Origin: Bacilli bacterium
GTDB lineage: Bacteria > Bacillota_I > Bacilli_A > RF39 > UBA660
Reading direction: 5' to 3'
Assembly (NCBI GenBank): GCA_017542465.1
Contig: JAFXXB010000010.1
Location: 1 to 32,060 of the forward strand
DNA: 32,060 nt
In this document: in pieces, positions 1,671 through 26,528 of the stretch
How the letters are laid out: every line of letters begins with the position of its first letter
Numbering within the stretch: position 1 is the stretch's first letter
Notes under the pieces: generated by a model
Told to the model about the DNA's origin: nothing
Seen by the model: the letters and a program-made list of their open reading frames with translations, nothing else
Databases searched by the model: none
Made by a program: the position numbers and the translations under genes

Positions 1671-3030
1671 AACTTACAGTAAATGGATCATCAGGAGTAC
1701 CACTTCCTACTAATGCTACTTCTGAATTTAGTGATACTACAGGTCTAACATTTGTTGAACTTGTATTATTCTCATCAGATATTTTACCATTATCATAAAC
1801 TGATGTAATTAAATTACCATAGTATACATTATAATATGATAGTGTCCAATACCCTATGTTTGTATATAAATATGAATAAGAAGATTCTCTATTAGTTAAA
1901 CCACCCAATGTTGCTTCATTTCCATCAATTAATCCTATTGGGTATGATAGACTTCCATTAGCTACACTTCTTTTGTCTGATTCTGAGCATGTCATAGAGA
2001 ATGAATTTCCATTTGAAAGACTATTACAGAACTCTGTATCCTCTAAATAACCTTGATATTCTATTAAGTGTTCAAAATACCATGCACTTAAATATTGTGC
2101 AACAACTACATTTTTATTATACTCACGATTGTTTGTTGCAAAAACACTTGTACCAATCGCAGTATTAGCTCCTGTTGTATTTGAGCAATATCCATTAGCA
2201 TCAGGTTCACCATTATATATAATCTTAATTCCACCTGTATTTGTTGTTCTTATTATTCTCCAACAATATCCACCAAATTTAACATGATTATGAACTTTAT
2301 CATGACCACCTCTGTAGAAGTAAATTGGAAAATCATCATTTTCAGTTCCAACTAAATAATATAAACCTTCATACTCATTTGATGATGTTGGAGTAGTAGG
2401 TGTTAATGCATCAGAACTCATATATTTAGTATTTTGAGATAATTTAGAAGCAGCTGCTCTTGATCTGAATTCATCAATATCTCCACTCTTAAATTTAATT
2501 ACTACGGATAAATCTAATGATGTTGATTCAGTTGGTAAATCAGAATCTAATGTTTCATCTTTTATTACATATTTTAAAACAAAAGTAGTATTCTTAACTG
2601 CACCAGGTATCCAATAATCACCAGGTTTAACTTCTCTTGTAGTACCTGTATAATATAATTTATAATCTAATATTCTAGCTTGTGATTCAGATACACCTTG
2701 TAACTCTATTGAATCAACTTTACCAGGTATTGTACCTTCATTAACAATATCAGCAGTAAATTTATAATCATCACCTATTTTATCTAAGTAAACATCAAAT
2801 GATATTTCCTTTTTTACTTCACCATCACTTATATGTGCTTCTGTATTTACGGTTGCTTTATGTGATACTGTTCCTACATTGTCAAAGTGTATATTAAAAT
2901 CTGCTTTACCTAAACCAACTCTACCATTTATTTTTAATGCTGTTGTAATAGCGGCATAACCAACAGTTATAGCTATTAAACATATAAATACAATTGTTAC
3001 TAAAGATATTCTTTTATTTCTATCATTCAT
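1669..3030 (-). CDS. N-terminally anchored surface protein
   Basis: A 453-residue exported protein. Residues 9-29 form a hydrophobic segment ending VGYAAITTALKING, similar in style to the leaders of SipW-processed, TasA/camelysin-like proteins of Bacilli. A beta-rich region follows to about residue 200. From about residue 225 a second domain carries GGYCWRIIRTTNTGGIKII and four cysteines spaced as two likely pairs, ending in RPVVSLNSEVALVGSGTPDD. This second domain recurs in surface proteins of uncultured gut Bacilli, but its function is not known to me. There is no LPXTG or NPQTN sorting signal, so the sortase elsewhere in the window is unlikely to anchor it. It is monocistronic with its own terminator. 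A 17-base palindrome sits over the -35 region. Confidence 0.6.
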   Translation of the reverse strand: MNDRNKRISLVTIVFICLIAITVGYAAITTALKINGRVGLGKADFNIHFDNVGTVSHKATVNTEAHISDGEVKKEISFDVYLDKIGDDYKFTADIVNEGTIPGKVDSIELQGVSESQARILDYKLYYTGTTREVKPGDYWIPGAVKNTTFVLKYVIKDETLDSDLPTESTSLDLSVVIKFKSGDIDEFRSRAAASKLSQNTKYMSSDALTPTTPTSSNEYEGLYYLVGTENDDFPIYFYRGGHDKVHNHVKFGGYCWRIIRTTNTGGIKIIYNGEPDANGYCSNTTGANTAIGTSVFATNNREYNKNVVVAQYLSAWYFEHLIEYQGYLEDTEFCNSLSNGNSFSMTCSESDKRSVANGSLSYPIGLIDGNEATLGGLTNRESSYSYLYTNIGYWTLSYYNVYYGNLITSVYDNGKISDENNTSSTNVRPVVSLNSEVALVGSGTPDDPFTVS

Positions 3031-11069: not shown

Positions 11070-11097
11070 AAATAAAAGATATACCGTAGTATATCTT
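11070..11097 (-). terminator. Terminator of the type IV secretion operon
   Basis: AAGATATAC (11076-11084) and GTATATCTT (11089-11097) form a perfect nine-base stem with a four-base loop, followed on the minus strand by TTATTT. It lies directly after the virD4 stop codon and closes the operon. Confidence 0.7.
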
Positions 11098-11098
11098 A

Positions 11099-13795
11099 TT
11101 ATTCAAAGAAATCATCAAAATATTCATCATCTGTATTACTTTCAACAACTTGTGTTTGTGTATCAACTTTAACTGTTTGATTTTCAACAGCAGGTTGTGG
11201 TTGTACAGGTGTTGTTTGAACTGGTTGTTCTTGAACAACTGGTTCAGGATTAACAAATTGAATAGTTTGTGGTTGTTCTTGTACCATCACTTGAGGTTGT
11301 ACTTGTTGTTGAGGTTGTACAGGAACTTGTTCAACATTTTCTTTAATCATATTATCAAAGAAATTATTAGGAGTAGATACCATTCCACCAGGTTGAGTGA
11401 ATAAATTACCTTGAGAAACTTGTTCTACTGGTTTAGTTGGTTCTTCAAATACAACTTGTTGAACAGGAACTGTTTCTTGTACTTGTACAGGTAATGACTC
11501 TTGAATTTGAATCGGTTCAACTGGTTGTGCAGGTACATTTGGTTGTACTGGTACTTCAGTTTGAACTTGATTATTCATATTACTGAATAAATCATTAAAT
11601 GTTTGAGTATTACTTGTTGGTTGTACAACTTCTTCCTTCTTTTCTTCAAATGCAGGTGTTTGTACAGGATTATCAAATACAACTTTATTTTCTTCAAATG
11701 GATTGAAGTTATTTGGTTTTTCAGTTGTAACTTTTTCTTGTTTAAGTTTTTCTTGTCTTTCTTCCTCTTCAAGTTTAGCAATTTGTGCATCTATCTTTTT
11801 AACTAAATCATCAATATCTACTTTTGGTTTAGTATTCATAGTTGGTTTATTAGCATTTCTTGCTGCAACAAATTCTTCAAATGTTGGTATTCTATTAGGA
11901 TTAGAATTTGAACTTGAATTTAATCCACTCATACCACCTGACATGATATCAGCAAAACTTGGAAGTCCTCCAGAAGGTCTTGAAGAATTAGCGAATGGAT
12001 CAGATATTCCTCCAGGTCCACCTAGTCCACCACCAAATGGAGATGATTCTCCACCTTTCTTCATATCACTTCTCTTACGAACATCTACGAAATTCTTTAA
12101 ATCAAATAAAGCAACTTCTCTTTCTTCTCTTAAAGGGAATTCAGCAGGTTGATTAAATTCTTTATCACCCCAGTCAACTTGCCATGCAGGTTTAATGTGA
12201 GTTCTAAAAGGATTTTCTCTATCTCTTAAAATGATAACTTCATTAGGTTTTAACTTTTGTAAATCTGCAACAGTTATTAATGGAACTGATGCAGTCTTAT
12301 CTTCTTTCTTACTCTTAACTTCACCACATAACTTAGAAATTTCCTCTAAGGCTGCAAGCTCAGTAGTAAGTAAATAGAATTTATTTGAACAGTTAGATTT
12401 AATTGTTTCTGCTTCTTCTTTACCATATACTTTATCCAATTGTGAATAGTTTTGGATAATGAACGTAAATCTTATCCATCTTGAACGAGCGGCAGTAACC
12501 ATTGTTGTAATATCTTTTAATGCTGGCATATTTGCAAACTCATCAAGTAAGAAGTTAACTCTTATTGGTAAGTGTGAACCAGGTGAACTTTGTGCAACAT
12601 CAATTAATGATTCATATACTTGTTTAATAAAGATTGTTGCAAGTCCATGGTATGTTTTCTTTTCATCTTGTACTACAATGAATACTGCAGTTGGTTCTTG
12701 ACCTATCTTAGACATATCAAAATCAGAATAAGATAACATATCTGATAAAGTATCTCTTGAACCAAATGGTCTAATCTTTCCTCTGAATGTTGAAAGAATA
12801 CCACCCTTTGTTTCTTGAGGTGCATTTATTGTATTATTTGCTAATACATATGTAGGTGATTCTTCACCTTTAAATTTAAAGTATTCTTTAATATATGTTG
12901 AATTACCACCAAATTTATCTTCACCTATTGATGTAATATAGTTAATAGATTTTAAGTTTATTTCTTCAGGTTTTGCATCTTCAAATAATCCTAAGATACA
13001 AGCTGATAAATAGTCAGCTGATGAATCTTGCCAGAATGGATCTTGTACATTTGCATCCTTACAAATATTTGATGCAATATCATCTACAAGTTCTGATGCT
13101 TTATCTTTATTACCTGATTTATATAAGTTATATGGTATCATCAATGGATTCCATGCATTACCATTCATAGGAGAACGGAAGTTAACAACTACTATGTTAT
13201 AACCCATATGTTTTAAATATGAAGCATGATTTCTATGAATTTCACCCTTAGGGTCTGTTAAGATCATTGATTCACGAGCTTTAGCTAATGAATACACTAA
13301 TGGGTCAATTATAGCGGTAGTTTTACCTGAACCAGATACACCAACAACAAGTGTATGGTTTTCAGAATTATCTATCCACATATTTTTACCATCATTAATT
13401 AATACTACTCCACCATGTTCAGCATGTTCATCAGTTACTCCAACTTTAATAACTTTAGGAAGTTTTTTCATTTCTTTTTCTTCCATCCATCTAGAATAAC
13501 CATCTGAATCTCTTTCACCTATTTTTAATCCAGGTCCACCTTTAGCAAACTCAAATATTGTAGATGAAACTGAGAAGAATATAACAGCTAATACACCAAA
13601 GAATAATACTAAAATAACTGGTATATGTTTAATATCAAAATATTTAAACGGAAAAAGGCCAGCAAACTCTGACAAATTAATAATAGTTAATACATTAACT
13701 ACTACTACAAAGCATAAATATAATAGAATAACGCAAAAAAGACCAAACAAAGCTAAATCTTTTGCAGTTACTTTTACTTTTAACTTAAGTGCCAT
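11099..13795 (-). CDS. VirD4/TraG-type coupling ATPase
   Basis: Type IV coupling proteins recruit substrates to the secretion channel and power their entry. The 898-residue product has two N-terminal transmembrane helices (about 13-38 and 57-80), a Walker A GVSGSGKTT (152-160), LTDPKGEI typical of TraG/VirD4 (about 179-186), a Walker B FLLDEFANMP (about 415-424) and the conserved TFIIQNYSQL segment. The ATPase part ends near residue 575. The remaining 320 residues are low complexity: Gly/Ser/Pro-rich, then a charged helix, then Pro/Gln/Val-rich runs (VQPQ, VPVQP), ending in the acidic DDEYFDDFFE. This tail is far longer than in textbook VirD4. It is the last gene of the operon, 53 bases after its neighbour, with an AAAGGGG ribosome site. 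Confidence 0.92.
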   Translation of the reverse strand: MALKLKVKVTAKDLALFGLFCVILLYLCFVVVVNVLTIINLSEFAGLFPFKYFDIKHIPVILVLFFGVLAVIFFSVSSTIFEFAKGGPGLKIGERDSDGYSRWMEEKEMKKLPKVIKVGVTDEHAEHGGVVLINDGKNMWIDNSENHTLVVGVSGSGKTTAIIDPLVYSLAKARESMILTDPKGEIHRNHASYLKHMGYNIVVVNFRSPMNGNAWNPLMIPYNLYKSGNKDKASELVDDIASNICKDANVQDPFWQDSSADYLSACILGLFEDAKPEEINLKSINYITSIGEDKFGGNSTYIKEYFKFKGEESPTYVLANNTINAPQETKGGILSTFRGKIRPFGSRDTLSDMLSYSDFDMSKIGQEPTAVFIVVQDEKKTYHGLATIFIKQVYESLIDVAQSSPGSHLPIRVNFLLDEFANMPALKDITTMVTAARSRWIRFTFIIQNYSQLDKVYGKEEAETIKSNCSNKFYLLTTELAALEEISKLCGEVKSKKEDKTASVPLITVADLQKLKPNEVIILRDRENPFRTHIKPAWQVDWGDKEFNQPAEFPLREEREVALFDLKNFVDVRKRSDMKKGGESSPFGGGLGGPGGISDPFANSSRPSGGLPSFADIMSGGMSGLNSSSNSNPNRIPTFEEFVAARNANKPTMNTKPKVDIDDLVKKIDAQIAKLEEEERQEKLKQEKVTTEKPNNFNPFEENKVVFDNPVQTPAFEEKKEEVVQPTSNTQTFNDLFSNMNNQVQTEVPVQPNVPAQPVEPIQIQESLPVQVQETVPVQQVVFEEPTKPVEQVSQGNLFTQPGGMVSTPNNFFDNMIKENVEQVPVQPQQQVQPQVMVQEQPQTIQFVNPEPVVQEQPVQTTPVQPQPAVENQTVKVDTQTQVVESNTDDEYFDDFFE

Positions 13796-13848
13796 CTATT
13801 ATACCCCTTTCCTCAATATATTATTATAATATAAATCATACAATTTTA

Positions 13849-14583
13849 CTATACTCTTTTATTACTTGCGTTATACTTGACTAATACAACTGTACATACT
13901 ATACCAACAAGAACAAACGCTCCTATTATTATATATTCAAGTATTTTATATGATTGTTCATTGTGTTTCTCTTTCTTTTCTTTTGTATTATTATTTGAAG
14001 TACTATCATTTATTACTTTTCTTTCATTTGTAATTGTAGTTGTAGGTATTGTAGTTGGTTGAGTAGCATTCTTAGTAATTACTTTGCTATCTTTAGCTGC
14101 AACACCATTTTTTCTTTCTTCTATATATTCATCACTTACATCTGAATTTCTTCTATAGTTTTTACCATCAAATCCCATATCATTAAAACTAATTTGTAAT
14201 TCAATAGTAATAGATGAAGTCTCATCATCATATACATTATTAGATTTATATGTAATAAATCCATACTTATCAACAGTACCATCACTAGCTACAGCATATG
14301 CAGATAAGAATTTAACATCTGTAATAGATTGATGATATTTATTTGTACTGAATCCATCACTTTTTATTAAAGTTATTTCTTCATCTTTATAATTATCAGG
14401 TGATGAATATACTCTATATTTCATAATAATCTTAGTTATATCATCCATATTAACACTTGTAGTTATTACAGATGATACTTTTACATTATTATATGTTTTA
14501 ATAGTTTCTTCTTCAGCAAAAATATATGTAGGAAAAATACATATTAATAAAATTGTAATAAATAATAATAGTTTATTTTTCAT
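13849..14583 (-). CDS. Type I membrane protein of unknown function in the secretion operon
   Basis: I recognise no family. The 244-residue product has a signal peptide (about 1-23, ending YIFA before EEE), an outer beta-rich domain of about 140 residues without cysteines, a Thr/Pro-rich linker (TTIPTTTIT, about 180-190), a Lys/Glu-rich stretch, and a C-terminal transmembrane helix (about 212-234) with a short basic tail. It would stand on the cell surface, anchored by its C-terminus. It shares this topology with the preceding gene product but not obvious sequence. Ribosome site AAAGGAAG. Position next to virD4 and the channel genes suggests a surface role such as recipient contact or exclusion; that is inference. 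Confidence 0.65.
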   Translation of the reverse strand: MKNKLLLFITILLICIFPTYIFAEEETIKTYNNVKVSSVITTSVNMDDITKIIMKYRVYSSPDNYKDEEITLIKSDGFSTNKYHQSITDVKFLSAYAVASDGTVDKYGFITYKSNNVYDDETSSITIELQISFNDMGFDGKNYRRNSDVSDEYIEERKNGVAAKDSKVITKNATQPTTIPTTTITNERKVINDSTSNNNTKEKKEKHNEQSYKILEYIIIGAFVLVGIVCTVVLVKYNASNKRV

Positions 14584-14598
14584 ACATATACTTCCTTT

Positions 14599-15231
14599 CT
14601 ATAATGATCTTGCTTTTAAGAACATTAGTATTATTATTATAAATGCCAATACAATTCCTGATATAGCAGCTATAACAATAATTTTCTTAACTTTACTTTG
14701 TTCCTTCTTCTTTTTTGTTTTATATTTTGAATAATCTATCTTATACGAAGTAGTTTCTCCTTCATATATTTTAAATTGATTAGGTAATTGATTTTCTAAT
14801 TCATCAGCACCTTCTACTGAATAACCAACATTATATAAATCTACATTTATTTCTTTAGATGCTTTAAATCCATTATCTTTATTTAATTCTAATGAATATG
14901 AATAAATATCAGACATAATATCAATTTTAATTTTAATATCATTTAAACTCTCAGGAACATTAGCACTTATTTCTATTGTTCCCTTTTTTGCTTGAGGATC
15001 TTCATTTATATCCTTTAATTCACGTATCTTTCTTCCATTTTTATCCAATTGAACATACATTTTAGTATTAACATCATAAGACCACTCAACAGAAACTTTT
15101 TCATCATTACAGTAAGCTTCTCCATTTCTCCATTCATCAATACAAGTATGATATGAGAATGCATTTACATTAAAATACAATGTTGAAATAAAGATAATTG
15201 AAAATATTTTCAAACACATTTTTTTTATCAT
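14599..15231 (-). CDS. Second type I membrane protein of the secretion operon
   Basis: I recognise no family. The 210-residue product has a signal peptide (about 1-24, cleavage expected after NVNA), then an outer domain beginning with a cysteine pair (HTC...AYCND), beta-rich sequence containing KKGTIEISANVPESL and EGETTSYKIDY, a Lys-rich stretch and a C-terminal transmembrane helix (about 181-206). Its ATG overlaps the stop codon of the NlpC/P60 gene (ATGA), so translation is coupled. The following gene encodes another protein of the same topology, suggesting that the two outer domains may form a pair. Confidence 0.65.
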   Translation of the reverse strand: MIKKMCLKIFSIIFISTLYFNVNAFSYHTCIDEWRNGEAYCNDEKVSVEWSYDVNTKMYVQLDKNGRKIRELKDINEDPQAKKGTIEISANVPESLNDIKIKIDIMSDIYSYSLELNKDNGFKASKEINVDLYNVGYSVEGADELENQLPNQFKIYEGETTSYKIDYSKYKTKKKKEQSKVKKIIVIAAISGIVLAFIIIILMFLKARSL

Positions 15232-17390
15232 TGCACACCACTTCCAACATATCTATAAAAATCACATATTGATGTTTCTCTTCCACTACTTTTTACTGGT
15301 CCATTCTTTACTACACCAACCCAATTACCATTTGGATCAAGATTATCTTTAGTTGTAGGAGTAAAATAACCTGTTGAAGGATTATAATTATACCATTTTT
15401 TTGTAGTGTTATGACCACCTGATGATTCAAGAACAGTCATTGTTTTTTTATCAGGATTCATGCTATAAACTAATACCCAATGTTTTCTATTTTTATATGC
15501 ACATACATCTCCAGGTAATACATCATCTACAGATATTTTTTGCCAGTTAGGATCAGATCCATCCCAATGACTGTGATAACAGTGATTGTCTTCTATAACA
15601 CCCATTGACGTTTTTCCCAAAGCTAAAGCATATGCATATCCCGTAAATCTACAACAATCAATACCATGAATTAATGAAGCACTATCTACAACAGGGTTTC
15701 CTAAATATGAGGTTGGATCGTACATTGCTTTCAAAAATTCATTTTTAGTAGGATCAATATTAGTGACATTTCCTGCATAATATCCGTCAGCTGTACTAGC
15801 ATATGGTAAACCTAATGAAATAATATATTCACCATAGAATAAAACTTTTTCTCTTAATGACGCTGACGCCTCAGGACTAGGTGCTGGTCCTATAATGCCA
15901 TTACCGCCACCACCACCTCCGGCAGCTACAGCTATTGTATCTATATTATTGTATGTATAGAAAGATGTGAATCCACTATATTGTCCTCTCATAACTCCAG
16001 CATTTTTATCAATATATACCCAATAACCATTACCTAGATAAATACCGGCATCACTACCATTAACACCTATATCACCAGGTTTTAAATCTCCTTCACTAAT
16101 ACCAGTAAAATTACTATTACTTCCTAAATTAGCAACATCTATTGTTCCAGGATCTGATCCTGTAACATTCCAAAATACCCATTCAATTAAACCATTGGAA
16201 TCAATACCACCAGTTATACCAGTAGCTGTTGCATCTGTTGGTTTTCCTCCATCTTTATAATTAGTTCCTATTGCAGTAGCTCCGGCTACTACTACTACTT
16301 TTCTACCATTTGATAAAGTATCAAAACCAGGAACTTCATCAGTTACAGCTTTAACAGCTTCATTCATATAAAGTCCTGCTCCATACATAGAAATATATGC
16401 ATTATCAGAGAAGAATTCTTCTACTTTACTTACTTTATCAGTAATAAAATCTACAGCATGTAGTGCAGGTATCATAACAATCCATATTGGTAAAAACATC
16501 ATTATTATTGTAAATACTGTTGAAACCAAACTTATTACTATAAGTAAAAATAAAGATTTAGCAGTAAATTTACCACCACTCTTGATTGTTTTACCTAAGT
16601 TATCAAACATTTGACTTAAGTCACCGTTTAATAAGTTACCAAAAGCATCAAATACTGAATTAACAGAATCAGCTGCATCTTCTACCCCAGTAGCTTTGAG
16701 AGCTTTGTCCATACCAACTTTATCTAATGCATCAGCTACATCACCTGTAGCCTTGCCAATAACATTGGTAGCTTTATTCATAACATCCCGACTGATATCA
16801 TTACTATTAATAAGGTTACCAGCAGCATCCATTAATCCATTTTTACTAGCATTTGATGCAGCCTTTGTAGCTGTTTTGGCTCCTTTTGCGGCAGCACCTG
16901 CTACATTTTTAGCTCCTTGAGCAGCAGCTTGTTTTCCAGTTTGTTTAACTGTTTCTTTTGCGGCAGCTCCACCAGCACTACTTGCTGCAGATCCAGCTCC
17001 TCCACCTGCAAATATTGATGCAACCTTTAAAGCTGCTTCTCCAGTTTTCTTAGTTGCTGAATCTTCAATTTCCCCATCTTTATTTACTACTTTACCAGGC
17101 GCAACTCTATCACCAGGTTTATATTCTTTATTTTCATCAATATTATAGTCTTCTTTTCCAATACTATTAATATTGTTAACTTCTTGTTTTAATTCTTTAA
17201 GTGTAGGTTTTTGAGATGCATTTGTTGCTACTTCAGTTCCAACACTTTTAGTTGGCATAGATGCTGTTTTTGTTACTGTACCAGCTGTTTGAGTAGCTTT
17301 TGTTGCAGTATTTGCTGCTGTATTTACTGTTTTACTAGCTGTACTTGCAGCTTTAGATGCATTATTTGCAGCATTAGCTAAATTAGCCAT
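15228..17390 (-). CDS. Membrane-anchored double NlpC/P60 wall hydrolase (VirB1-like role)
   Basis: A 720-residue protein. Residues 1-270 are Ala/Lys/Thr-rich, helical and presumably cytoplasmic. A hydrophobic stretch at about 279-311 crosses the membrane. Outside are two NlpC/P60-like domains. The first (about 350-485) keeps the fold landmarks but has IDSNGLIEWVFWN where DCSGL is expected (Cys replaced by Ser398) and DAGIYLGNG where HVGIY is expected (His replaced by Asp447), so it should be inactive. After a Gly-rich linker the second domain (about 511-720) has GIDCCRF (C579), PGDVCAYKNRKHWVLVY (H637) and SGGH (H660), a plausible active triad. Such enzymes cut peptidoglycan peptides and open the wall for type IV channels, as with CwlT-type proteins. 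Ribosome site AAAGGAAG. Confidence 0.75.
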   Translation of the reverse strand: MANLANAANNASKAASTASKTVNTAANTATKATQTAGTVTKTASMPTKSVGTEVATNASQKPTLKELKQEVNNINSIGKEDYNIDENKEYKPGDRVAPGKVVNKDGEIEDSATKKTGEAALKVASIFAGGGAGSAASSAGGAAAKETVKQTGKQAAAQGAKNVAGAAAKGAKTATKAASNASKNGLMDAAGNLINSNDISRDVMNKATNVIGKATGDVADALDKVGMDKALKATGVEDAADSVNSVFDAFGNLLNGDLSQMFDNLGKTIKSGGKFTAKSLFLLIVISLVSTVFTIIMMFLPIWIVMIPALHAVDFITDKVSKVEEFFSDNAYISMYGAGLYMNEAVKAVTDEVPGFDTLSNGRKVVVVAGATAIGTNYKDGGKPTDATATGITGGIDSNGLIEWVFWNVTGSDPGTIDVANLGSNSNFTGISEGDLKPGDIGVNGSDAGIYLGNGYWVYIDKNAGVMRGQYSGFTSFYTYNNIDTIAVAAGGGGGGNGIIGPAPSPEASASLREKVLFYGEYIISLGLPYASTADGYYAGNVTNIDPTKNEFLKAMYDPTSYLGNPVVDSASLIHGIDCCRFTGYAYALALGKTSMGVIEDNHCYHSHWDGSDPNWQKISVDDVLPGDVCAYKNRKHWVLVYSMNPDKKTMTVLESSGGHNTTKKWYNYNPSTGYFTPTTKDNLDPNGNWVGVVKNGPVKSSGRETSICDFYRYVGSGVQ

Positions 17391-17414
17391 TACCTACACT
17401 TCCTTTCTAGAATA

Positions 17415-17894
17415 TTATTTATACAATTTTACAGTATAATTCCATACTCCATTCTCATAGAATACATAGTGATTATTATATTTGTCCACTACATATATCA
17501 TATTATCTTCTCTTGTATATTGAGATAAATCACTTGTTTTTAAAATCTTTTTATCTAATGTTTTTTGATAATTCAAGAAATTATCATAATTATCATTATA
17601 TAAAGATGTTTTTGTATCATTAGTTAACTTTGTATATGCTTTAGCAGGATCATCTGCCATTAATTGCATAAATTCTTTATAATAAGCTCTATATACATCT
17701 ATCTCATCTTTATTAATTAATGTATATTGATTAGTATTATAATTAACTATTTGTAAATCTTGTATTTTAGAATAAGGATTATATTCTCCTATATTATTTA
17801 TATAATACTTATATCCAAAATAGCCACCTATAATTAAACCAATAAATACTATAACTAAAATAGTTAACTTATATTTTTTAATAAAATTAATCAT
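17415..17894 (-). CDS. VirB8-like single-span protein (second copy)
   Basis: A 159-residue protein with a transmembrane helix at about 8-30 and an outer domain whose pattern (YYKEFMQLMADDPAKAYTKL, then a beta-rich end with YVVDKYNNHYVFYENG) suits the NTF2-like fold of VirB8/TcpC assembly factors. The match is by shape and context, not by strong sequence identity. An in-frame ATG 30 bases further upstream lacks a ribosome site. The ATG at 17892-17894 follows GGAGGTG by about eight bases and overlaps the previous gene by eight bases, so it is chosen. Confidence 0.6.
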   Translation of the reverse strand: MINFIKKYKLTILVIVFIGLIIGGYFGYKYYINNIGEYNPYSKIQDLQIVNYNTNQYTLINKDEIDVYRAYYKEFMQLMADDPAKAYTKLTNDTKTSLYNDNYDNFLNYQKTLDKKILKTSDLSQYTREDNMIYVVDKYNNHYVFYENGVWNYTVKLYK

Positions 17895-18420
17895 GACATA
17901 CACCTCCAAATTCTGAGGCTTCAATCACTGAAACACTGAAAGTCATTTCATTTTCATTAAGAATAATATCATAATATTCACTTCCATATGTTTTTAAATC
18001 ATTTGAACCAATTACATCACCTGATACATAATAACTAGTAAATCCTTTGCCTAATCTCTTAGAGCACATTAATTTACCTTTATATGTTACCATTTTTTCA
18101 TAGTGCTTAATTTTATCCTTTATATTATCCTTATTAATTCCATTATCAACTTTATATTTATTACTTAATAATTTAAGTGTTTCAGAATCATTATTAGAAT
18201 TAATAGTATTATAATACTTATCTAATATATTAATGATTGTATAATATCTACTATAATCACGTACTTTATTATAGTTTTGATCTACTGTTTGTTGATATTC
18301 CTTTTTAGCTTTATTTATTTTAATACCAGCTAATATTCCTAGAACCCCCATCAATACTAGACCAAATATTATCCACATTAATAGAACCCTTCTTTGTTCT
18401 TTTGTTAAATTATCTATCAT
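17887..18420 (-). CDS. VirB8-like single-span protein (first copy)
   Basis: A 177-residue protein with a transmembrane helix at about 12-33, a helical stalk, then an outer domain (about 55-175) with helical start IINILDKYYNTINS and beta-strand end, compatible with an NTF2-like VirB8 domain. Two cysteines (LMCSKR and GGVCHD) lie in the outer part. It has an AAGGTGAT ribosome site and overlaps the next gene by eight bases. Two small membrane proteins of this shape in a row suggest a heteromeric VirB8-type subassembly; the assignment rests on topology and operon position. Confidence 0.55.
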   Translation of the reverse strand: MIDNLTKEQRRVLLMWIIFGLVLMGVLGILAGIKINKAKKEYQQTVDQNYNKVRDYSRYYTIINILDKYYNTINSNNDSETLKLLSNKYKVDNGINKDNIKDKIKHYEKMVTYKGKLMCSKRLGKGFTSYYVSGDVIGSNDLKTYGSEYYDIILNENEMTFSVSVIEASEFGGVCHD

Positions 18421-18429
18421 AGTATCACC

Positions 18430-20961
18430 TTATGTTCCAAATACATTACGCATATATGGTCCAAGTTTCTTTTCTACTTGCCATGTAGCATATGCATTTT
18501 GATCTTCTTGAATAGTTGGTGTACAATCTCCACCACCTGTATTACATTGAGAAGGTTTAGCACATATTGCAGTTACTTCATCTTGTCTTTGAGGTGACAT
18601 ATATTGCTTAATATATGGGAAATATATACAACCACCTGTTGGCCAAGAACCAGGATTATACCAATTTCTACCAATATATGCATATTTTAATTGCATTGAC
18701 ATTAAATTATCATATTTAGTTACTGTACCAGCAAATCCTCTAATACCATCTTCTAGAGAACTGTATGTTATACATGCAGCATAACCACCTGTATTTGTAC
18801 ATCCCATTCCCCAATAATTATGTTTTGAGTCACCTGGAGAATTTCCTTCTGCCATTGCTCTAGTAATGACTAATTCAGGGTTAACATTAGCATTTCTTGA
18901 TGCTTCATATACAGTTGATGGACTATTACACATAGCAGCTGCAATTTGTCCAGGATGAGCTTGGCAATAAGACGATACACGTCCGACAAACTCTGATTCA
19001 GTTAAATGTGTTCCATCAAACTTAGTTGATCTTCCACCTACACCACCTATAGATGATCCACCCACAGGTCTTAAATCTTCTTTTTTAGGAGGAGTATTTC
19101 TTCCTGCAGAAGTATTTGCTATTGGGTCTTCTGCACTTGATACACTATTACCACCCATTCTTAATTCATAATAGAAGTTAGGTTTTTTAGTTTCACCTGT
19201 ATCTCCACTTTTACCAATTACTTGTCCTTTAAATACAGTTCTACCTTCACTTATTTGTTCAGATATTTCAGATAAATGTCCATATAATGTGTAATCACCA
19301 TTACTATGAGATACAATTATATAGTTACCATATCCATCATTACATTCGTAATCACCTGATGTACATCCACTCTTAATTAAATTAACTGTTCCATCAAATA
19401 CAGCTATTATAGGTGTTCCTATATCAGCAGTAATATCTATTCCATAATGTTCCTCTTTATTTCCATCAATAGGACTTGTTCTTTCACCAAAATATGAATC
19501 AACATTATCTGTTGTATACTTAGGATCTCCATCAGCAAATAGTAATGTTGTAGTATTAACATCCTCATATAATTTATATGAAGTTGAATTATCAAATACA
19601 TCACCAATTGAATCGGATAAAGTAATCATTCTCTTACCAGTTGTTGTACCACTTGTACTTCCAGTAGAAGAACCAACTTGTCTTTCAGTTATTTCTTCAC
19701 TTCCAATAGGCCAATAGAATAATGATCTATCATTTGTATTGTAAGTTGCATCATCATATTCTTGAGTACCATATCCTTCATATGACATAGGTATACCATT
19801 TTGATTTAATGTGTCAATTATATCATGTATAATATCAACTCTATCAGCTTGTATCTTTTCTTCAAATTCCTCATATCTTCCTGCTGCTTCAAGTGATTCA
19901 TCACATATATTTGATGTCATACACTTAACTCCAGCTTCCTCTAATACATCACTAAAATATCCTTGTAAGTGAGGTTTTTTATCAAAATAAGGATTTTCTT
20001 TTAAATAATCAAAATATTTATTATTAGATATATGTTTATCTACTTTATTATCTTTATCAACATATTGATAATGTGTACCTTCAGGATATTCTTGAGCTTT
20101 TTCTTCACATTCATCATAATATTCATCTTTCATATCAAGACCAAATAGTTTAAATGCTGTTGATAAAATTGAATCATGATTCATTTTAGATGAATAATAA
20201 GTCCAGAAACCTAATTCATATCCATTAGCACTTGTTGATGCTGATATATTTACAGCACATTTCTTTACTTCTTTTTTAACTCCTAACGGATGAGATATTA
20301 ATGTAGTAACAGTACCTCCATCAGGGCACGTTAACACACTAGTTCCATCATCTTTAACCACTTTTTCAGGATCACCATATATACCATAACAATATGTATA
20401 ATATGCGATAGAATTCTTTATCAAAACTACTACAGTATCAGTTTCAAGTGACATTTTATTGGCTTCTTCTTCATCATATTTTTCTTCAATATCATAATTA
20501 TCATCATCTATTGATTCATCATATATTAAACCGGCCTGTAATTCGCCTTCTTTTTTGTTATAGTAATAATCTTTATATTTCTCATCACCTTCACGGTTAC
20601 CTGTTTGTTCACCAGCTAAACCTATTAAGGCAGTTGTAATAACTAAATCATCTGAAATAACTAAACCTTTCTTTTGATATTTAGCTAGTATTTTATACAT
20701 TCTTACGAAGAACTTCTTTTGTCCCATTAATAAAGAGTCTTCTTTACATGAGCCATCTTCATTAGCATCTTCTTCTAAGCATAATTCACCAAACATAAAC
20801 TTATTACTTTCATAATATTTATCCCAATCAAACTTGGAATAATCACTCATTTTAGCAAAAGTATTACTAGGCATTATTAATAATAATGTCAACAAAACAA
20901 GAATCATAGTTAAATGATTCTTGTTAAATATCTTTCTAATAGTGTTTAATATGTTAAACAT
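18430..20961 (-). CDS. Secreted wall hydrolase: degenerate M23 domain plus GH73 glucosaminidase
   Basis: An 843-residue protein with an N-terminal signal or anchor (about 17-36, MPSNTFA). About 400 residues of unrecognised Asp/Tyr/Cys-containing sequence follow. Next is an M23/LytM-like domain (about 485-615) with HYGIDI (H505, D509), SHSNGDYTLYGHL (H552, H562) and GKSGDTGE. The final HLHFE motif reads NFYYE (595-599), so both histidines of HxH, including the third zinc ligand, are missing. After a linker, residues 655-800 form a GH73-type glucosaminidase domain with PELVITRAMAEGN (E705), NYWGMG and SSLEDGIRGFA. It probably serves as the VirB1-like enzyme that opens glycan strands, with the M23 part structural or regulatory. 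It contains 18 cysteines, unusual for this kind of organism. Ribosome site AAAGGATGTGAT. Confidence 0.8.
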   Translation of the reverse strand: MFNILNTIRKIFNKNHLTMILVLLTLLLIMPSNTFAKMSDYSKFDWDKYYESNKFMFGELCLEEDANEDGSCKEDSLLMGQKKFFVRMYKILAKYQKKGLVISDDLVITTALIGLAGEQTGNREGDEKYKDYYYNKKEGELQAGLIYDESIDDDNYDIEEKYDEEEANKMSLETDTVVVLIKNSIAYYTYCYGIYGDPEKVVKDDGTSVLTCPDGGTVTTLISHPLGVKKEVKKCAVNISASTSANGYELGFWTYYSSKMNHDSILSTAFKLFGLDMKDEYYDECEEKAQEYPEGTHYQYVDKDNKVDKHISNNKYFDYLKENPYFDKKPHLQGYFSDVLEEAGVKCMTSNICDESLEAAGRYEEFEEKIQADRVDIIHDIIDTLNQNGIPMSYEGYGTQEYDDATYNTNDRSLFYWPIGSEEITERQVGSSTGSTSGTTTGKRMITLSDSIGDVFDNSTSYKLYEDVNTTTLLFADGDPKYTTDNVDSYFGERTSPIDGNKEEHYGIDITADIGTPIIAVFDGTVNLIKSGCTSGDYECNDGYGNYIIVSHSNGDYTLYGHLSEISEQISEGRTVFKGQVIGKSGDTGETKKPNFYYELRMGGNSVSSAEDPIANTSAGRNTPPKKEDLRPVGGSSIGGVGGRSTKFDGTHLTESEFVGRVSSYCQAHPGQIAAAMCNSPSTVYEASRNANVNPELVITRAMAEGNSPGDSKHNYWGMGCTNTGGYAACITYSSLEDGIRGFAGTVTKYDNLMSMQLKYAYIGRNWYNPGSWPTGGCIYFPYIKQYMSPQRQDEVTAICAKPSQCNTGGGDCTPTIQEDQNAYATWQVEKKLGPYMRNVFGT

Positions 20962-20979
20962 ATTATCACATCCTTTATT

Positions 20980-22788
20980 CTATAATCCTCCACCAGATCC
21001 AAATGAATCTAATTCATCTTGAGTAAGAATTACATTAATTTGCATTCTTCTTGATCCACATACAAATAGACCTTCACCTTGTGTATATGTCTTGATTGCT
21101 TCTTGTTCAGCTTCATTTAAATCAATTAATTTAGCTAAATCATCAGTAGCTTGTTTCTTTAAGCCCATTACTAAATAATAAGAAGCATTATCGAATATAG
21201 CTTTACCATGTACAAATATATTTGGTGCAGCAAAGTCTGTAGGTTGTTGTGTAATTATAATTGTACCTGTGTTATATTTACGAGCACGTCTTTGCATGTT
21301 AGCTAAGTATTCAGCACCTAATTCATTATTACCAGATAATAAGATATGTGCTTCATCTACATACATTAATGTATTCTTATCTTTATTTAAACATAATCCC
21401 CAAGCATATTTTAATATGTTGAAGAATAATGCATTTCTGATATTTGCATCTGAATTCATTATTTCTTTAATATTAAATACTATAAAATCACTATCAGTAT
21501 TTAATGTTGTAATACCACAGAAATAATATCTTAATTCATTAACAAATGGTCTAACTCTTAACTCAAGTCTTTCTAATACATCTTTTTCTCTAGTTGCTTC
21601 AGGTATAGAAATTAACTTACCCTTAATAGTTTCATAAACTTGATCAAAAGTAGGATAATTCTCTGGTTTAAATTGAGAAAAATCAGTATTAAAATCTATT
21701 CCAAATCTCTTATATGTTTCTTGTGTTATAGATGAGAACATTTCTAGAACATCATCTTCAATATCAGGATTATAATATTTCATAAATGCCTTTAAAGATG
21801 TTAATGTTCTAGTTAATACAGTATAACCTTCACCATTTTGTAATTCTTCAATATCTGAATCAACTACAACTTCAAATGGATTGATCATACCATATGATCC
21901 ACCTTTACCTAAATCAACAAAATTACCACCATAATTGTGTGCCATTGCCTCTAATTCGCCTTCAGGGTCAATACAAACAATTTGATTTCTATTTCTTATA
22001 TGACTTCTAAGTAATAACTTAGCAGCTGTTGATTTACCAGATCCAGATGTACCTAAGATAATCATATTAGCGTTATTACGATTACCATAGTTCATATTCT
22101 TATCATTTCTCATTTGATAATAGAATTGATTGAATAATACTACTCCACCAGATCTATCAACACCAAATAATGCGGCTTTTCCAGGATCCTTAATTGAATC
22201 AAATACAAAAGGATACATAGCAGCTATTGTTGGTGTTGGAATAGGAATACCTATTCTTGTTTCAACTTCTTGTTTAGGGAATACAGGTAACATTGATTTA
22301 AGAACATGTTCTTGATCAAATAACAATTGCATTCCTCTCATATCTAAACTTACTAAGAAGTTTTTAACTTGTACTTTTCTTACATCTAATTCTTCTTGAG
22401 AATCAGCTGTTATCATTATATGTAATTGGAAATCAAATACTTTTGAATTAGTTGCAGCAAGCATTTGTACAAACCCTTCCATAGATTCATAACTAATTCT
22501 TAATCTTTCTTTTAAAGTATTATCTTTCTCTTTTTCATATTCATCTTTTAATTCTACTATTTCTTTATTAATTGTTGCTGATATAGTAGCAAAATCAATA
22601 GGCATATGTTTAACTACAACTTTAACACCAGGGATAGTTGTGATATTTGATAAATAACCAGGTCCAATTATATTTGGATATTGGATAATTGTAAATATTG
22701 TTGCAAACTTATCACCTATCATAAATTGATTCATTTTGAATGATAAACCTTTAGGTGCGACTTCACTTTTTAATGTACTCTTAGACAT
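20980..22788 (-). CDS. VirB4-type secretion ATPase
   Basis: VirB4 is the conserved ATPase of all type IV secretion systems. The 602-residue product has an N-terminal VirB4/TrbE-like domain (about 15-200), a Walker A GTSGSGKST (246-254), IDPEGELEAMAHNYGG after it, a Walker B TLMYVDEAHILL (about 473-484), and IIITQQPTDF (about 510-519). It is shorter than the roughly 800 residues of Tn916 Orf16-type VirB4 because the extra N-terminal TraC-like domain is encoded by the preceding gene. The two genes overlap by eight bases, and the ribosome site GGTGATG lies inside the upstream gene, so they are translationally coupled. Confidence 0.93.
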   Translation of the reverse strand: MSKSTLKSEVAPKGLSFKMNQFMIGDKFATIFTIIQYPNIIGPGYLSNITTIPGVKVVVKHMPIDFATISATINKEIVELKDEYEKEKDNTLKERLRISYESMEGFVQMLAATNSKVFDFQLHIMITADSQEELDVRKVQVKNFLVSLDMRGMQLLFDQEHVLKSMLPVFPKQEVETRIGIPIPTPTIAAMYPFVFDSIKDPGKAALFGVDRSGGVVLFNQFYYQMRNDKNMNYGNRNNANMIILGTSGSGKSTAAKLLLRSHIRNRNQIVCIDPEGELEAMAHNYGGNFVDLGKGGSYGMINPFEVVVDSDIEELQNGEGYTVLTRTLTSLKAFMKYYNPDIEDDVLEMFSSITQETYKRFGIDFNTDFSQFKPENYPTFDQVYETIKGKLISIPEATREKDVLERLELRVRPFVNELRYYFCGITTLNTDSDFIVFNIKEIMNSDANIRNALFFNILKYAWGLCLNKDKNTLMYVDEAHILLSGNNELGAEYLANMQRRARKYNTGTIIITQQPTDFAAPNIFVHGKAIFDNASYYLVMGLKKQATDDLAKLIDLNEAEQEAIKTYTQGEGLFVCGSRRMQINVILTQDELDSFGSGGGL

Positions 22789-23371
22789 TTGTCATCACCG
22801 TCCCAAACTCTGTTCTTAAAGAATCATTAAAGAATGCATCTAAAATAACTCTTAAATCATCATTAGTTACTTGTCTAGAGTTTAATCCAGCTCTAGCTAA
22901 ATTAGATATTAAGTTTTGTATTTTCTTAATTAACACATCTTTATTCTTAACTGATTCTTTTAATAATATATAGTATTCTGTATCTACAGCATTTATTTGA
23001 GGACCAACAAACATATCACATTTAGCTAAATCCTCACCTATCAATTTTCTTATTTTAGGATCTTCTTCTTGAACATACATAACTTCAAGTTCAGACTTAT
23101 ATAGGTTTATATCTACAGGTCTATCACAACAAACTAACCAGAATTCATAATCAATAGTGTTATAAAAATCTCTTAGATTATTTATAACATTAATTTGATT
23201 TTGTGTATCAGTTATAAATATATTTCTAGGTTCAATTCTAATACCTGAAATATATTGATGTCCTGTCATAGCAGTTCCTTTAGCTTCCATCATACCATCT
23301 TTAATATCAACTAATGGTAACCAATCTTCTGTACTTATAAAACCACTATTGTTTGTCTTCTTGTTCGCCAT
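22781..23371 (-). CDS. TraC-like domain protein, VirB4 partner
   Basis: A 196-residue soluble protein beginning with FISTEDWLPLVDIKDGMME and GIRIEPRNIF, the pattern of the N-terminal TraC-like domain that precedes the ATPase in larger VirB4 proteins. The rest is helical with two cysteines and RAGLNSRQVTNDDLRVILDA near the end. There is no Walker motif. It lies between PrgI and VirB4 and overlaps both genes (26 and 8 bases). It probably binds VirB4 or PrgI at the membrane. The assignment is from sequence style and position; a database profile was not run. Confidence 0.65.
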   Translation of the reverse strand: MANKKTNNSGFISTEDWLPLVDIKDGMMEAKGTAMTGHQYISGIRIEPRNIFITDTQNQINVINNLRDFYNTIDYEFWLVCCDRPVDINLYKSELEVMYVQEEDPKIRKLIGEDLAKCDMFVGPQINAVDTEYYILLKESVKNKDVLIKKIQNLISNLARAGLNSRQVTNDDLRVILDAFFNDSLRTEFGTVMTNV

Positions 23372-23672
23372 AGCACTTACACCAACCTCTCCATCTATAA
23401 TCTCTTTGATTTGTTAAAAACGCATATATATTTACCGTAAATGACCATATATTCATTTGATTAGGAACCGGTATTATCATAATACCTGTAATCAAGAATG
23501 GTAGTAAATCGATAAATACATCCATTAATGTTTGTGGGTTATTAATAAATATTAACAAAAATGTTAATATTCCACCTGATCCAAATATTATCAAATCAAT
23601 TCTTCTAAAAATACCAAATATTAACATCGACCTTTTAGAATTGGCCGGTATTAAGAAATTGTTATCTTCCAT
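23346..23672 (-). CDS. PrgI family protein (VirB3-like)
   Basis: A 108-residue protein with two transmembrane helices (about 25-43 and 48-68) and the PrgI hallmark near the C-terminus, NQRDYRWRGW. PrgI proteins are small inner-membrane parts of Gram-positive conjugation channels and are equated with VirB3; they are almost always encoded just before VirB4, as here. The GGGTGTGAT ribosome site is good. Its 3' end overlaps the TraC-like gene by 26 bases. Confidence 0.85.
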   Translation of the reverse strand: MEDNNFLIPANSKRSMLIFGIFRRIDLIIFGSGGILTFLLIFINNPQTLMDVFIDLLPFLITGIMIIPVPNQMNIWSFTVNIYAFLTNQRDYRWRGWCKCYGEQEDKQ

Positions 23673-23686
23673 AGTATCACACCCTT

Positions 23687-25408
23687 TTATTTTTTATCAT
23701 TGGTTGCAGCATATAATGCTTGCATTCTACCTACCTCAGCATCAGTTTCCTTAGCAACTTTACTAATTTGATCAACTATAGCTTTTAAAGCTCTTTTTTG
23801 ATCATCATCCAAATTTGATTGTTTTCTAATAACATTATATAATTCTTTCAACATATCAAAATCTTCAGCGCAATTTTCTGGATTAGCTATAGACAATTTT
23901 TGTGCAACATCAATAACAATGTCAGCTTCCTTACTTTTCTTAAATGCTTTCATAACAGTTTCGCATGCATTAACATATGCTTGTTTAACGTCTTTATCAC
24001 TTAAAGCCTTTTGTTGTTCATGTATCATTGTATCTGTTTCATTAATAAGTGCTTGCTTAAGTTGGTCACTATTTAATAGTTTCGCACGTTCTTCAGCGAT
24101 TTCACCATCTAACTTATCTATTTCTTCCTTGCATGTATCTTTATATAGTTCGGCATCTAATTTAGACATTATACTTGCTATTTCAGAGTCACCCATTAAA
24201 ACGCCAGTTGAATTTCCACCATCATCAGCAACACACCAATCACCATCGTCATTTGCAGTACCCCATTTTTTATTATTCGATTCTTGAAGTTTTATATATT
24301 CATCATCTGTCGAAGATAACGTTCTACCAAGTTCTTTTTCTTTTTTTGCTAATTCTCTTGCAAAATCAGCATGTTTTTTCGCTTCAATTTCATTATTAAA
24401 GCTTTCTTTAGTACTTCTTGCTTCTACTTCAGCCATGGAGTCAATAAGTCCGTCCATTTGTGTTGCCGTTAATTCAATTGGCTTTCCTGATGAATCTCTT
24501 AAAGCTGTACCATCATCGCCAGCAGCATATCTCTTACCGTCAGATGTTTGTATTCCCCATTTTTTATTATTAGCTTTTAACATTTCTCTTTTTTCATCAT
24601 TACTTAAAGATCTACCAAGTTGTTTTTCCTTTTTTGATATTTCATTAGCCAAATCTTGTTTTTTTCTCTCTTCCACTTTAGAATTCCATGCATTTCTAGC
24701 TTCTGACCCTGCAGGAGCCGCAGCTGCAGCAGCAGCTTCTTGTCTTAAAACATTAGCTTTCGCTGCAGTATTACCAGAAGTATTCTTTTGTTCTAAATAC
24801 TTATTATAATTTTCGCCGCTAATTGATGCAGCTTGAGCATCTCTTTGACTTTCAAGATTTTTCTTTTTATCAACTTTCTTAGTGATTGAACTATTGTCTT
24901 TATATATTGTATTAACAACATTACCATATTTAGCATTAGCCTCAGCTAATTTTGAAGCTTGTGGATTCATATATTTAACACCAACTTGTCTACCAGCTTG
25001 TTGAGCAGCAGCTCTTACATCTTTCATTGTAACATCATCAAGCCATGATAGTTTTGTGTTTTGGGCTGCTTTAGAGCCTTTAATCATTCCCCTTAGAGCA
25101 CCTTTAAATCCACCTGTCTTAGCTCCAGCTTCAAGTCCTTGTCTAGCACCAACTGCGCCCTTGTAAAATTTGCCAACATTTTGTCCTGCTTTCTTAATAC
25201 CGTCTCCATATTTCTTAACAGTAGATCCAACTCTACTAGCATTACTCTTCATTTCATTAAATGCTGATAAACCATTAAATTTTCCTTTTAATGCATCGTC
25301 CATTGAACCTATAATATTCTTTAAAATACCAGGAGCATCAAATCCAAATTTTAATAGACCTAGTGTTAAAAAGAATGTTGAAAATAATCTAAACGAAAAT
25401 GTATCCAT
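23687..25408 (-). CDS. Helical, Ala/Lys-rich VirB6-tail-like protein with tandem repeats
   Basis: A 573-residue protein. It starts with one hydrophobic helix (about 8-34, GLLKFGFDAPGILKNIIG) of the kind found where the membrane part of VirB6/TrbL proteins meets the cytoplasmic tail. The rest is soluble, helical and rich in Ala, Lys, Glu and Asn. Two diverged repeats of about 80-95 residues are visible at about 249-330 and 344-420. Both contain KKEK-LGR-LS, then NNKKWG, then a DG...A-DDG segment. A coiled-coil-like helix bundle follows to the end. It lies 14 bases after the VirB6-like gene, so the pair probably represents a VirB6 split in two. The function of the repeats is unknown. Confidence 0.6.
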   Translation of the reverse strand: MDTFSFRLFSTFFLTLGLLKFGFDAPGILKNIIGSMDDALKGKFNGLSAFNEMKSNASRVGSTVKKYGDGIKKAGQNVGKFYKGAVGARQGLEAGAKTGGFKGALRGMIKGSKAAQNTKLSWLDDVTMKDVRAAAQQAGRQVGVKYMNPQASKLAEANAKYGNVVNTIYKDNSSITKKVDKKKNLESQRDAQAASISGENYNKYLEQKNTSGNTAAKANVLRQEAAAAAAAPAGSEARNAWNSKVEERKKQDLANEISKKEKQLGRSLSNDEKREMLKANNKKWGIQTSDGKRYAAGDDGTALRDSSGKPIELTATQMDGLIDSMAEVEARSTKESFNNEIEAKKHADFARELAKKEKELGRTLSSTDDEYIKLQESNNKKWGTANDDGDWCVADDGGNSTGVLMGDSEIASIMSKLDAELYKDTCKEEIDKLDGEIAEERAKLLNSDQLKQALINETDTMIHEQQKALSDKDVKQAYVNACETVMKAFKKSKEADIVIDVAQKLSIANPENCAEDFDMLKELYNVIRKQSNLDDDQKRALKAIVDQISKVAKETDAEVGRMQALYAATNDKK

Positions 25409-25422
25409 ATTCTAACACCACC

Positions 25423-26436
25423 CTATCCTAACAATATTTCATTTAATACTGCTGTATTAATTGAATTTATAATATCTGGTAAAATCGTACACATAAATAA
25501 TATGAATGATATAACCGCTACTCTAACGAATACATCAATGTATGTATTTAACAGATCTTTAAACCAATTATCAAAGTTTTCTTTTTTAAACATTCTCATC
25601 ATAATTGGAACAGGAGCAAATATTTGTAGAGCAAACAATCTAAATAAACGTCCTGCAATCGAATAAACATAACCTATACCAAATACCAATAATATAATTC
25701 CTGCAATAGATGAAATAATTGGGAATTTTTCTATATGTTCATTATCACTCCAAGTTTTACTCTTCTTCATGACTAAAGTTGTCCAGAATGGGTGTTGTGC
25801 TTCACAGTTATCTATAAGTGATTGAACAAATCCTTGTTCAGTTACAGAGAAATTATCATTACTAGGACTTACAAAATATTCACTACATGATTCAGCGTCA
25901 TAGTCATTAATATAATCACCATAAGTTTTATTTACAGGATGTACAAATGTCATCCATGTCATCATTGATATTCTTTTACCTCTCGTCATAACACGAGATA
26001 CACCTTGTTCTTTACCTAAAATCATTGCAGGTATTGTATCACTTGCTAATACATGGTTTTGGAATAAACTCATATATCTAAATATCAAAGGCATCAATAT
26101 AAGCATAACCATACTAAAGACTATCCTCTTTAACATAGCCGTAGGTTTCATCTGATCTTTAACATATCTACCATCTGGTTGCATAACATATAATAATAAG
26201 TTATATGCAAATATAAATACCATAACTATAGAAATAATCATGTATATTCTTTGAGATAAAGCTTCATATAATTGTTGACCTAATGCTGTAGATCCAAATA
26301 AATCAAGTTTAGCCAAAACAAAGAATACGTTAAATATTACATCTATAAGTGCATATATACCAAAATCTATAGTATTATTAAATATAACAAATAACGCATC
26401 ATTTACTATATCCATAGTATCGCCTGATAAAAACAT
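25423..26436 (-). CDS. VirB6/TrbL-like polytopic channel protein
   Basis: A 337-residue protein and the first gene of the operon. Hydrophobic helices lie at about 12-40, 68-92, 104-130, 243-272, 275-290 and 303-328. A large outer loop (about 130-235) holds a likely disulfide pair (ESCSEYF and IDNCEAQ). The conserved Ala/Pro segment LFALQIFAPVPIMMRM and the WFKDLLNTYIDVFVRVAVISF stretch match Gram-positive VirB6/TrbL proteins, which form the inner-membrane channel. Two starts are possible: ATG at 26436 with AGGGTGAT just upstream, and ATG at 26415 with AGGCGAT. The first has the better site and is used. Confidence 0.8.
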   Translation of the reverse strand: MFLSGDTMDIVNDALFVIFNNTIDFGIYALIDVIFNVFFVLAKLDLFGSTALGQQLYEALSQRIYMIISIVMVFIFAYNLLLYVMQPDGRYVKDQMKPTAMLKRIVFSMVMLILMPLIFRYMSLFQNHVLASDTIPAMILGKEQGVSRVMTRGKRISMMTWMTFVHPVNKTYGDYINDYDAESCSEYFVSPSNDNFSVTEQGFVQSLIDNCEAQHPFWTTLVMKKSKTWSDNEHIEKFPIISSIAGIILLVFGIGYVYSIAGRLFRLFALQIFAPVPIMMRMFKKENFDNWFKDLLNTYIDVFVRVAVISFILFMCTILPDIINSINTAVLNEILLG

Positions 26437-26499: not shown

Positions 26500-26528
26500 A
26501 TTATAATATTTATTCAATATTTATTCAA
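26500..26528 (-). promoter_or_regulatory. Promoter of the type IV secretion operon
   Basis: On the minus strand TTGAAT (26523-26528), a 17-base spacer and a perfect TATAAT (26500-26505). The -35 and spacer consist of two tandem copies of TTGAATAAATA (26507-26528), so a second TTGAAT lies only seven bases before the -10. The start would be near 26493. This is the only good promoter in front of the 12 genes. Confidence 0.65.

Follow-up and report, generated by a model that had tools for sequence, protein, structure and literature searches.

A probably domesticated type IV secretion system in the core gene set of the Bacilli family UBA660

The 32,060-nucleotide stretch of DNA analysed here (contig JAFXXB010000010.1 of assembly GCA_017542465.1, a genome of the Bacilli family UBA660, GTDB order RF39; hereafter, the window) carries a 12-gene operon for a type IV secretion system (T4SS), and this operon raises the question of whether it is a mobile element, the remnant of one or a resident apparatus of its cell. 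A first-pass annotation had noted that the operon is accompanied by neither a relaxase nor an integrase, and had proposed either a resident apparatus whose substrate is supplied from outside or a domesticated conjugative element. Neither a relaxase nor an integrase was detected in those window proteins that Pfam scans covered, and the proposal gained support from the prevalence of the system in the family, its congruence with RpoB and the lack of any linked relaxase in the orthologous loci. Family-wide presence, an RpoB-congruent tree, purifying selection and the absence of a linked relaxase lead us to regard the locus as a domesticated conjugation machine: a core, vertically inherited T4SS, with a probability of about 0.9. 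Taken together with the channel mechanism proposed below, this reading still appears highly probable.

Presence, inheritance and relaxase content across the family

Uncultivated Bacilli of the RF39 type are common in the gut, and they combine reduced genomes with numerous auxotrophies (PMC6784871). The records of the named relatives are metagenome-assembled genomes (MAGs) of uncultured 'Bacilli', 'Erysipelotrichaceae', 'Tenericutes' or 'Mollicutes', many of them from rumen and gut. The VirB4 ATPase (VirB4-C) was matched in 348 of the 386 family genomes, in 228 of the 251 high-quality genomes and in 145 of the 150 genera. Approximately 335 of the 348 matches are clear orthologues and about a dozen are weak or distant; the matches show 60–85% identity at the listed places and nearly always form a single frame of approximately 600 aa. 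VirD4 was matched in 357 of the 386 genomes, some of these matches being weak. Thus, the block is present in most relatives, where the first-pass annotation had asked whether it might be missing. Among 247 genomes sampled across the class, no VirB4 match outside the family exceeded 36% identity. In one family genome (G250), the T4SS lies mid-way in a single 1.26-Mb contig and is therefore chromosomal.

The history of VirB4 agrees with that of RpoB; a comparison with the species tree had been suggested by the first-pass annotation. Between the VirB4 and RpoB trees of 26 genomes, in which the two genes are unlinked, 17 of the 23 splits are common, and the patristic distances are correlated (r = 0.81; 0 of 5000 permutations were as high). 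No conflict was found among splits with an ultrafast bootstrap (UFBoot) value of ≥95, and one was found at ≥80. The ratio of nonsynonymous to synonymous substitution rates is 0.05–0.16 for VirB4 and 0.06–0.13 for RpoB, indicating RpoB-like purifying selection.

The relaxase profiles used were those of MOBP, MOBV and MOBT and a MobL-type profile, which was built from relaxases of mobile relatives and matches Pfam MobL. By none of these was a relaxase found in the 101 orthologous loci (2077 ORFs, 2.1 Mb); such a relaxase in the block of close relatives, together with an integrase, had been named by the first-pass annotation as evidence against its proposal. As a control, the MobL-type profile finds the relaxases of all six mobile VirB4 relatives (6/6), of which four had served to build it and two had not, so that the control is partly independent. 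The window genome (G000) measures 1.085 Mb in 46 contigs. The MobL-type profile and the three other relaxase profiles gave no match in 97.6% of it, and PF03389, PF03432, PF02486 and PF01076 gave none in the assembled genome, an assembly that is 87% complete; MOBP, MOBV, MOBT and MobA/MobL are all unmatched there.

The best profiles for the window VirB4 are NF045975 and NF045971, and in the tree it groups with plasmids of the FATA class and with loci resembling integrative and conjugative elements (ICEs). Its sister group consists of ICE-like loci that carry a relaxase in other families of the class (UFBoot 100 in the sampling of this tree). Because the nearest VirB4 relatives sit in such relaxase-carrying loci, a single capture followed by relaxase loss is the simplest history: the system was probably acquired in one event, from a mobile element that had a relaxase, ahead of the diversification of the family, and subsequently lost the relaxase. 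In some family genomes, a second T4SS of mobile type, with a single-gene VirB4, was seen as well, at four loci (L187, L188, L190 and L191), two of which adjoin a MobL relaxase.

The position of the T4SS was also compared. In most of the window's genus it stands at a fixed place, with infC-rplT-tdk-tmk upstream and vtt-rmuC on the other side, and the neighbours that recur across genera are a rhodanese, a VTT-type protein and rmuC downstream, or a pair of M16 peptidase genes. A reading of the downstream neighbours in relatives as RuvAB was dropped, as these sequences read as rhodanese, a VTT/DedA-type protein and RmuC. The queA side of the window locus is common to its three nearest relatives, and the M16/deoD side is also common to the one in which both flanks could be read. 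In the window genome, vtt-rmuC stands elsewhere, adjoining lepA and free of the T4SS, so the T4SS has relocated once inside the genus.

Possible uses of the system

In many relatives, genes resembling those for CpaB, TadA, TadB and TadC, together with genes for a TadE-like protein and a TadZ-like ATPase, lie directly upstream of the T4SS; Pfam supports the CpaB and ATPase assignments, and the others were made by order, size and homology. Beyond them stand one or two genes for VirB2-like pilins; of 12 such pilins, 10 match T4SS_pilin (PF18895). The window genome has its Tad genes on contig 22, whereas contigs 19 and 6 hold its VirB2-like genes. A TadA-like (Tad-type) ATPase was matched in 376 of the 386 family genomes, approximately 317 of the matches being strong (E<1e-40) by our own count. 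A strong Tad match is missing from 16 of the 18 listed genomes that are negative for both VirB4 and VirD4, versus 53 of the 368 others (Fisher p ~3e-11), a count made by hand and partly inferred for unlisted genomes, with genome reduction, assembly gaps and linkage as confounders.

In the mechanism that we propose, the Tad pilus and the VirB2-like pilin, encoded elsewhere in the window genome, would draw another cell close, and the M23 and NlpC/P60-like hydrolases would open the wall. The VirB8 pair, VirB6, VirB3 and VirB4 would form the channel, and VirD4 would select substrates, perhaps via its long Pro/Gln-rich tail, and feed them through it. The likeliest use would be a resident service to the reduced-genome cell itself, in the form of contact-dependent exchange with other bacteria. 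That the T4SS serves contact-dependent traffic of effectors and/or DNA with other cells, for the benefit of its own cell, is a serious but still tentative proposal. A further step, namely that the family lives by T4SS-dependent contact with host or prey bacteria, convergently with Patescibacteria, with Tad and VirB2 pili binding the partner and the T4SS injecting effectors or drawing DNA, is speculative and rather doubtful; it would be in keeping with reduced genomes and absent cultures.

Several observations weigh against reading the locus as a domesticated core system in the service of its own cell. The majority of the genomes compared are MAGs, and the T4SS has shifted its position within the genus. 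In two genera (g59 and g125, all members seen), the T4SS is retained and no strong match to the Tad ATPase is present, which rules out Tad as an obligate partner. A scan of the window genome's own proteins for shared C-terminal tags found no effector family, only giant surface proteins; in particular, it yielded no family of the X-T4SS effector type, which shares a C-terminal domain recognised by VirD4. Lastly, unlinked relaxases are common in the family: MOBV exceeds the cut-off in 32 of 58 genomes, MOBP in 15 of 98 and MOBT in 1 of 58.

Because such relaxases occur in many family genomes, the T4SS may be used conjugatively in trans. In its full form, this explanation makes the T4SS a public mating machine whose main cargo, moved in trans, is mobilizable elements (MOBV, MOBP) or chromosomal DNA and which is kept because DNA transfer among kin is of benefit. 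It would account for the MOBV and MOBP genes, which lie on contigs other than that of the T4SS or far away from it, and for the retention in the operon of VirD4, which is required for receiving relaxosomes. However, the window genome and approximately half of the family genomes have no MOBV match, the window genome is devoid of matches to MOBP, MOBT and MobA/MobL as well, and service to mobile elements alone poorly explains RpoB-like purifying selection in every genus. We consider this explanation unlikely, and the weaker proposal that the MOBV elements of the family hitch-hike on the core T4SS possible. MOBV reaches up to seven copies per genome in family genomes (for example, those of L193 and L194), on contigs other than the T4SS contig.

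Import or exchange of DNA in the manner of the archaeal Ced/Ted systems is improbable to a similar degree. Here, the T4SS with VirB2 and Tad pili would deliver DNA to ComEC for repair or nutrition. ComEC is present in 52 of 58 genomes, including the window genome, and Ced/Ted provide a precedent for domesticated, chromosomal, relaxase-less VirB2/4/6 DNA importers (PMC9905601). However, VirD4 is kept and conserved in the family, whereas the Ced/Ted components named in that study are homologues of VirB4, VirB6 and VirB2. Moreover, ComEC occurs with or without the T4SS and persists in T4SS-negative genomes (G069 and G087), so that the two are not tied to each other. Finally, a recently acquired ordinary ICE or an ICE remnant would fit the gene kinds, which match those of conjugative plasmids, and the flanks that differ within the genus, but this is very improbable for a locus that is near-universal, intact and relaxase-free, with no integrase among the window proteins scanned, and a recent ICE is ruled out by the RpoB-congruent tree and the prevalence (348/386).

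The giant surface proteins returned by the scan are of interest in themselves. Three predicted surface proteins of 3019–3656 aa (L286:6856-15915, L293:4015-14985 and L235:4887-15659, on contigs 11, 22 and 4) end in a transmembrane (TM) helix and, after it, a domain of approximately 200 aa that is predicted to be cytoplasmic and shows 67–75% identity among the three. In one copy, this domain matches the MnmA-type HUP/PP-loop domain (PF03054, E=1.8e-16); such a tRNA-thiolation-like domain, as predicted here, is very odd on a giant surface protein. The window genome, though small, holds several further very long repetitive surface proteins. A 453-aa protein of the window (1669–3030) has its N-terminal part in common with a predicted surface protein of 5588 aa (L258:5552-20000, contig 28).

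The operon, its products and its surroundings

The 12 open reading frames (ORFs) all lie on the minus strand, running from 26436 to 11099 with intergenic gaps of -38 to +53 bp, and form one tight operon, as the first-pass annotation had described (Table 1). Their order is as follows: a VirB6-like protein, an Ala- and charge-rich protein, the protein in the VirB3 position, the N-terminal part and the ATPase of VirB4, an M23 hydrolase, two small proteins with one TM helix each, a protein that weakly matches NlpC/P60, two predicted exported proteins that have a C-terminal TM helix, and VirD4. Housekeeping genes flank the operon on both sides: a pair of M16 peptidase genes and a deoD-type phosphorylase gene upstream, and queA and tgt downstream, an identification that Pfam scans of the neighbours corroborated. 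No tRNA or Rfam match lies within the window, which rules out insertion into a gene for a tRNA or another RNA.

Table 1. Features of the T4SS operon and its candidate signals (window coordinates)
Feature	Position	Strand	Length (aa)	Description	Support
Candidate promoter	26500..26528	-		TTGAAT-17-TATAAT, upstream of T1	consensus match only
T1	25423..26436	-	337	VirB6/TrbL-like polytopic membrane protein	NF045848 conjugal transfer family, E=1.4e-7, sub-cut-off
T2	23687..25408	-	573	Ala- and charge-rich protein	sequence; zero Pfam families over cut-off
T3	23346..23672	-	108	two-TM protein, putatively VirB3/PrgI-like	position, size, conservation; no Pfam match
T4	22781..23371	-	196	VirB4 N-terminal part, TrsD-like	NF045975 positions 93-280, E=1.7e-14
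T5	20980..22788	-	602	VirB4 ATPase domain, TrsE-like	NF045975 positions 294-891, E=3.8e-97; Walker motifs intact
T6	18430..20961	-	843	exported M23-domain peptidoglycan hydrolase, in the VirB1 role	PF01551 E=9.9e-25
T7	17887..18420	-	177	VirB8/TcpC-like, one TM helix and NTF2-like domain	AlphaFold pLDDT 89
T8	17415..17924	-	169	second NTF2/VirB8-like candidate	AlphaFold pLDDT 84; weak matches, best NTF2-like E=0.05
T9	15228..17390	-	720	membrane protein, probable NlpC/P60-type hydrolase region	NLPC_P60 E=0.0027, sub-cut-off
T10	14599..15231	-	210	predicted exported protein, C-terminal TM	sequence; homologues in three nearest relatives only
T11	13849..14583	-	244	predicted exported protein, C-terminal TM	18-member family across 17 loci
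T12	11099..13795	-	898	VirD4 coupling ATPase	PF02534 E=2.2e-49; NF045973 292.6 bits vs cut-off 250
Candidate terminator	11076..11097	-		hairpin AAGATATAC-TACG-GTATATCTT before T-rich TTATTTACTTT	9-bp, between virD4 and queA

Other claims of the first-pass annotation stood in part. One promoter and one terminator had been assigned to the operon. A -10/-35 pair and a hairpin are indeed present; however, the promoter scan as a whole did no better than chance (87 found versus 110 expected from shuffles), and the hairpin was read by eye and is absent from the output of that scan. Of the two wall hydrolases that had been named, the M23 protein was borne out (E=1e-24), whereas the second stayed below threshold (NlpC/P60, E=0.003). 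As for the channel parts, VirB4 and VirD4 were recovered by profile and VirB8 by fold, and VirB6 falls below the cut-off in the window gene and exceeds it in an orthologue, that of genome G371 (TrbL_4 profile). Orthologues of T1 were found in 20 of the 20 relatives examined, mostly as one gene of 650–940 aa, and T2 may be the counterpart of the C-terminal part of this single, longer VirB6. T3 sits directly before VirB4 and has been kept in 21 of 21 regions and in 78 of 80 named loci.

VirB4 is encoded by two genes, because a single NF045975 profile is split between T4 and T5 (Table 1). The N-terminal part is a gene of its own in 80 of the 80 named loci, and the separation is also found in pBS72, pTW11 and Exiguobacterium plasmids, which rules out both a novelty and a sequencing error. 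Judged from the sequences, this is the ordinary TrsD/TrsE arrangement, as in plasmids of the pGO1 and pLS20 kind.

The predicted NTF2-like domain of T7 is closest to TcpC of pCW3 (3ub1, Z 10.3), and OrfG of ICESt3, a VirB8-like protein, follows (7pkw, Z 9.1). All Foldseek E-values exceeded 0.01. The predicted NTF2-like fold appears secure; since unrelated NTF2-like and cystatin-like folds score Z 8–9.6, a VirB8 role is suggested by the fold with the aid of the genomic context. The structure matches of T8 to NTF2-like proteins are all weak, and T8 was rejected as a clear VirB8. In six genomes, a single longer ORF belongs to both the T7 and T8 families, recalling the two domains of TcpC. Homologues of T11 lie upstream of virD4 within the genus. 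The Pro/Gln-rich tail of the T12 VirD4 is C-terminal and approximately 360 aa long.

Comparison with known systems

Domesticated T4SSs of the monoderm type are already known as a kind from Patescibacteria, which offer the nearest counterpart in the literature and a precedent for contact-dependent use. There, they form chromosomal, near-universal and mostly relaxase-less loci with a distinct VirB4 lineage, and Ca. S. epibionticum has been found to require their genes for its growth as an epibiont (PMC12102498). The system described here resembles them in being chromosomal, near-universal and free of a linked relaxase, in having a distinct VirB4 lineage with a TrsD-like N-terminal part, in its putative VirB3, its VirB6, PF18895-type VirB2-like pilin and wall hydrolases, and in its reduced host genomes and type IV pili. 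It differs in its host, a family of Bacilli, in the inclusion of VirD4 in the operon (in Patescibacteria, VirD4 is found near virB4 in a minority only) and in its clear VirB8-like proteins. In addition, a Tad pilus locus is often adjacent to the T4SS here.

To the extent of the searches made, the host group, the coupling with Tad and the retention of VirD4 in the operon are new, and the open-access literature searched yielded no paper that links RF39 or UBA660 to VirB4 or to a T4SS. A T4SS that occurs in nearly every genus, is under RpoB-like selection and lacks its own relaxase leads one to expect a contact-dependent lifestyle and names genes with which to test it. If this is true, the family would be a second large bacterial lineage, after Patescibacteria, to combine reduced genomes with pili and a domesticated T4SS of the monoderm type. 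The family would, moreover, offer a natural case of a conjugation machine turned to the use of its own cell: one that was probably captured a single time, has many descendants and can be compared with mobile relatives that still exist.

By sequence, the system appears to belong to the Gram-positive mating-pair formation (MPF) class FATA, as a chromosomal representative of the pGO1/pLS20-like type with a two-gene VirB4. It shares with the plasmids of this type the two VirB4 genes (~200 + 614–655 aa), a small protein in the VirB3 position, a hydrolase and a VirD4 of the CD1115 family. However, those plasmids are mobile, some with a relaxase beside the T4SS (MobP3 in pEYLC1.2), whereas the present system is chromosomal, core and relaxase-free. 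The archaeal Ced/Ted systems (PMC9905601) are likewise domesticated chromosomal T4SSs with VirB2/4/6 homologues and no relaxase. Unlike the components named for Ced/Ted, which import DNA, those of the present T4SS include VirD4 and wall hydrolases.

A two-gene VirB4 T4SS beside CpaB/CpaF/TadB/TadC-type genes is also found at locus L186 and on a plasmid of Mycoplasmatota strain zrk4 (CP074574, L222). Neither belongs to the core lineage described here. L186 occurs in a single genome of another family of the class (G041), and the zrk4 T4SS is carried on a 97.9-kb plasmid. At L186 (9824–12363), the order of the VirB4 genes is reversed, with the ATPase part first, and TadA and TadC matches lie upstream. 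On the zrk4 plasmid, the T4SS is followed directly by SAF/CpaB, AAA ATPase, CpaF and TadB/TadC-type genes, and this plasmid is a possible model of a mobile element that unites Tad and T4SS genes.

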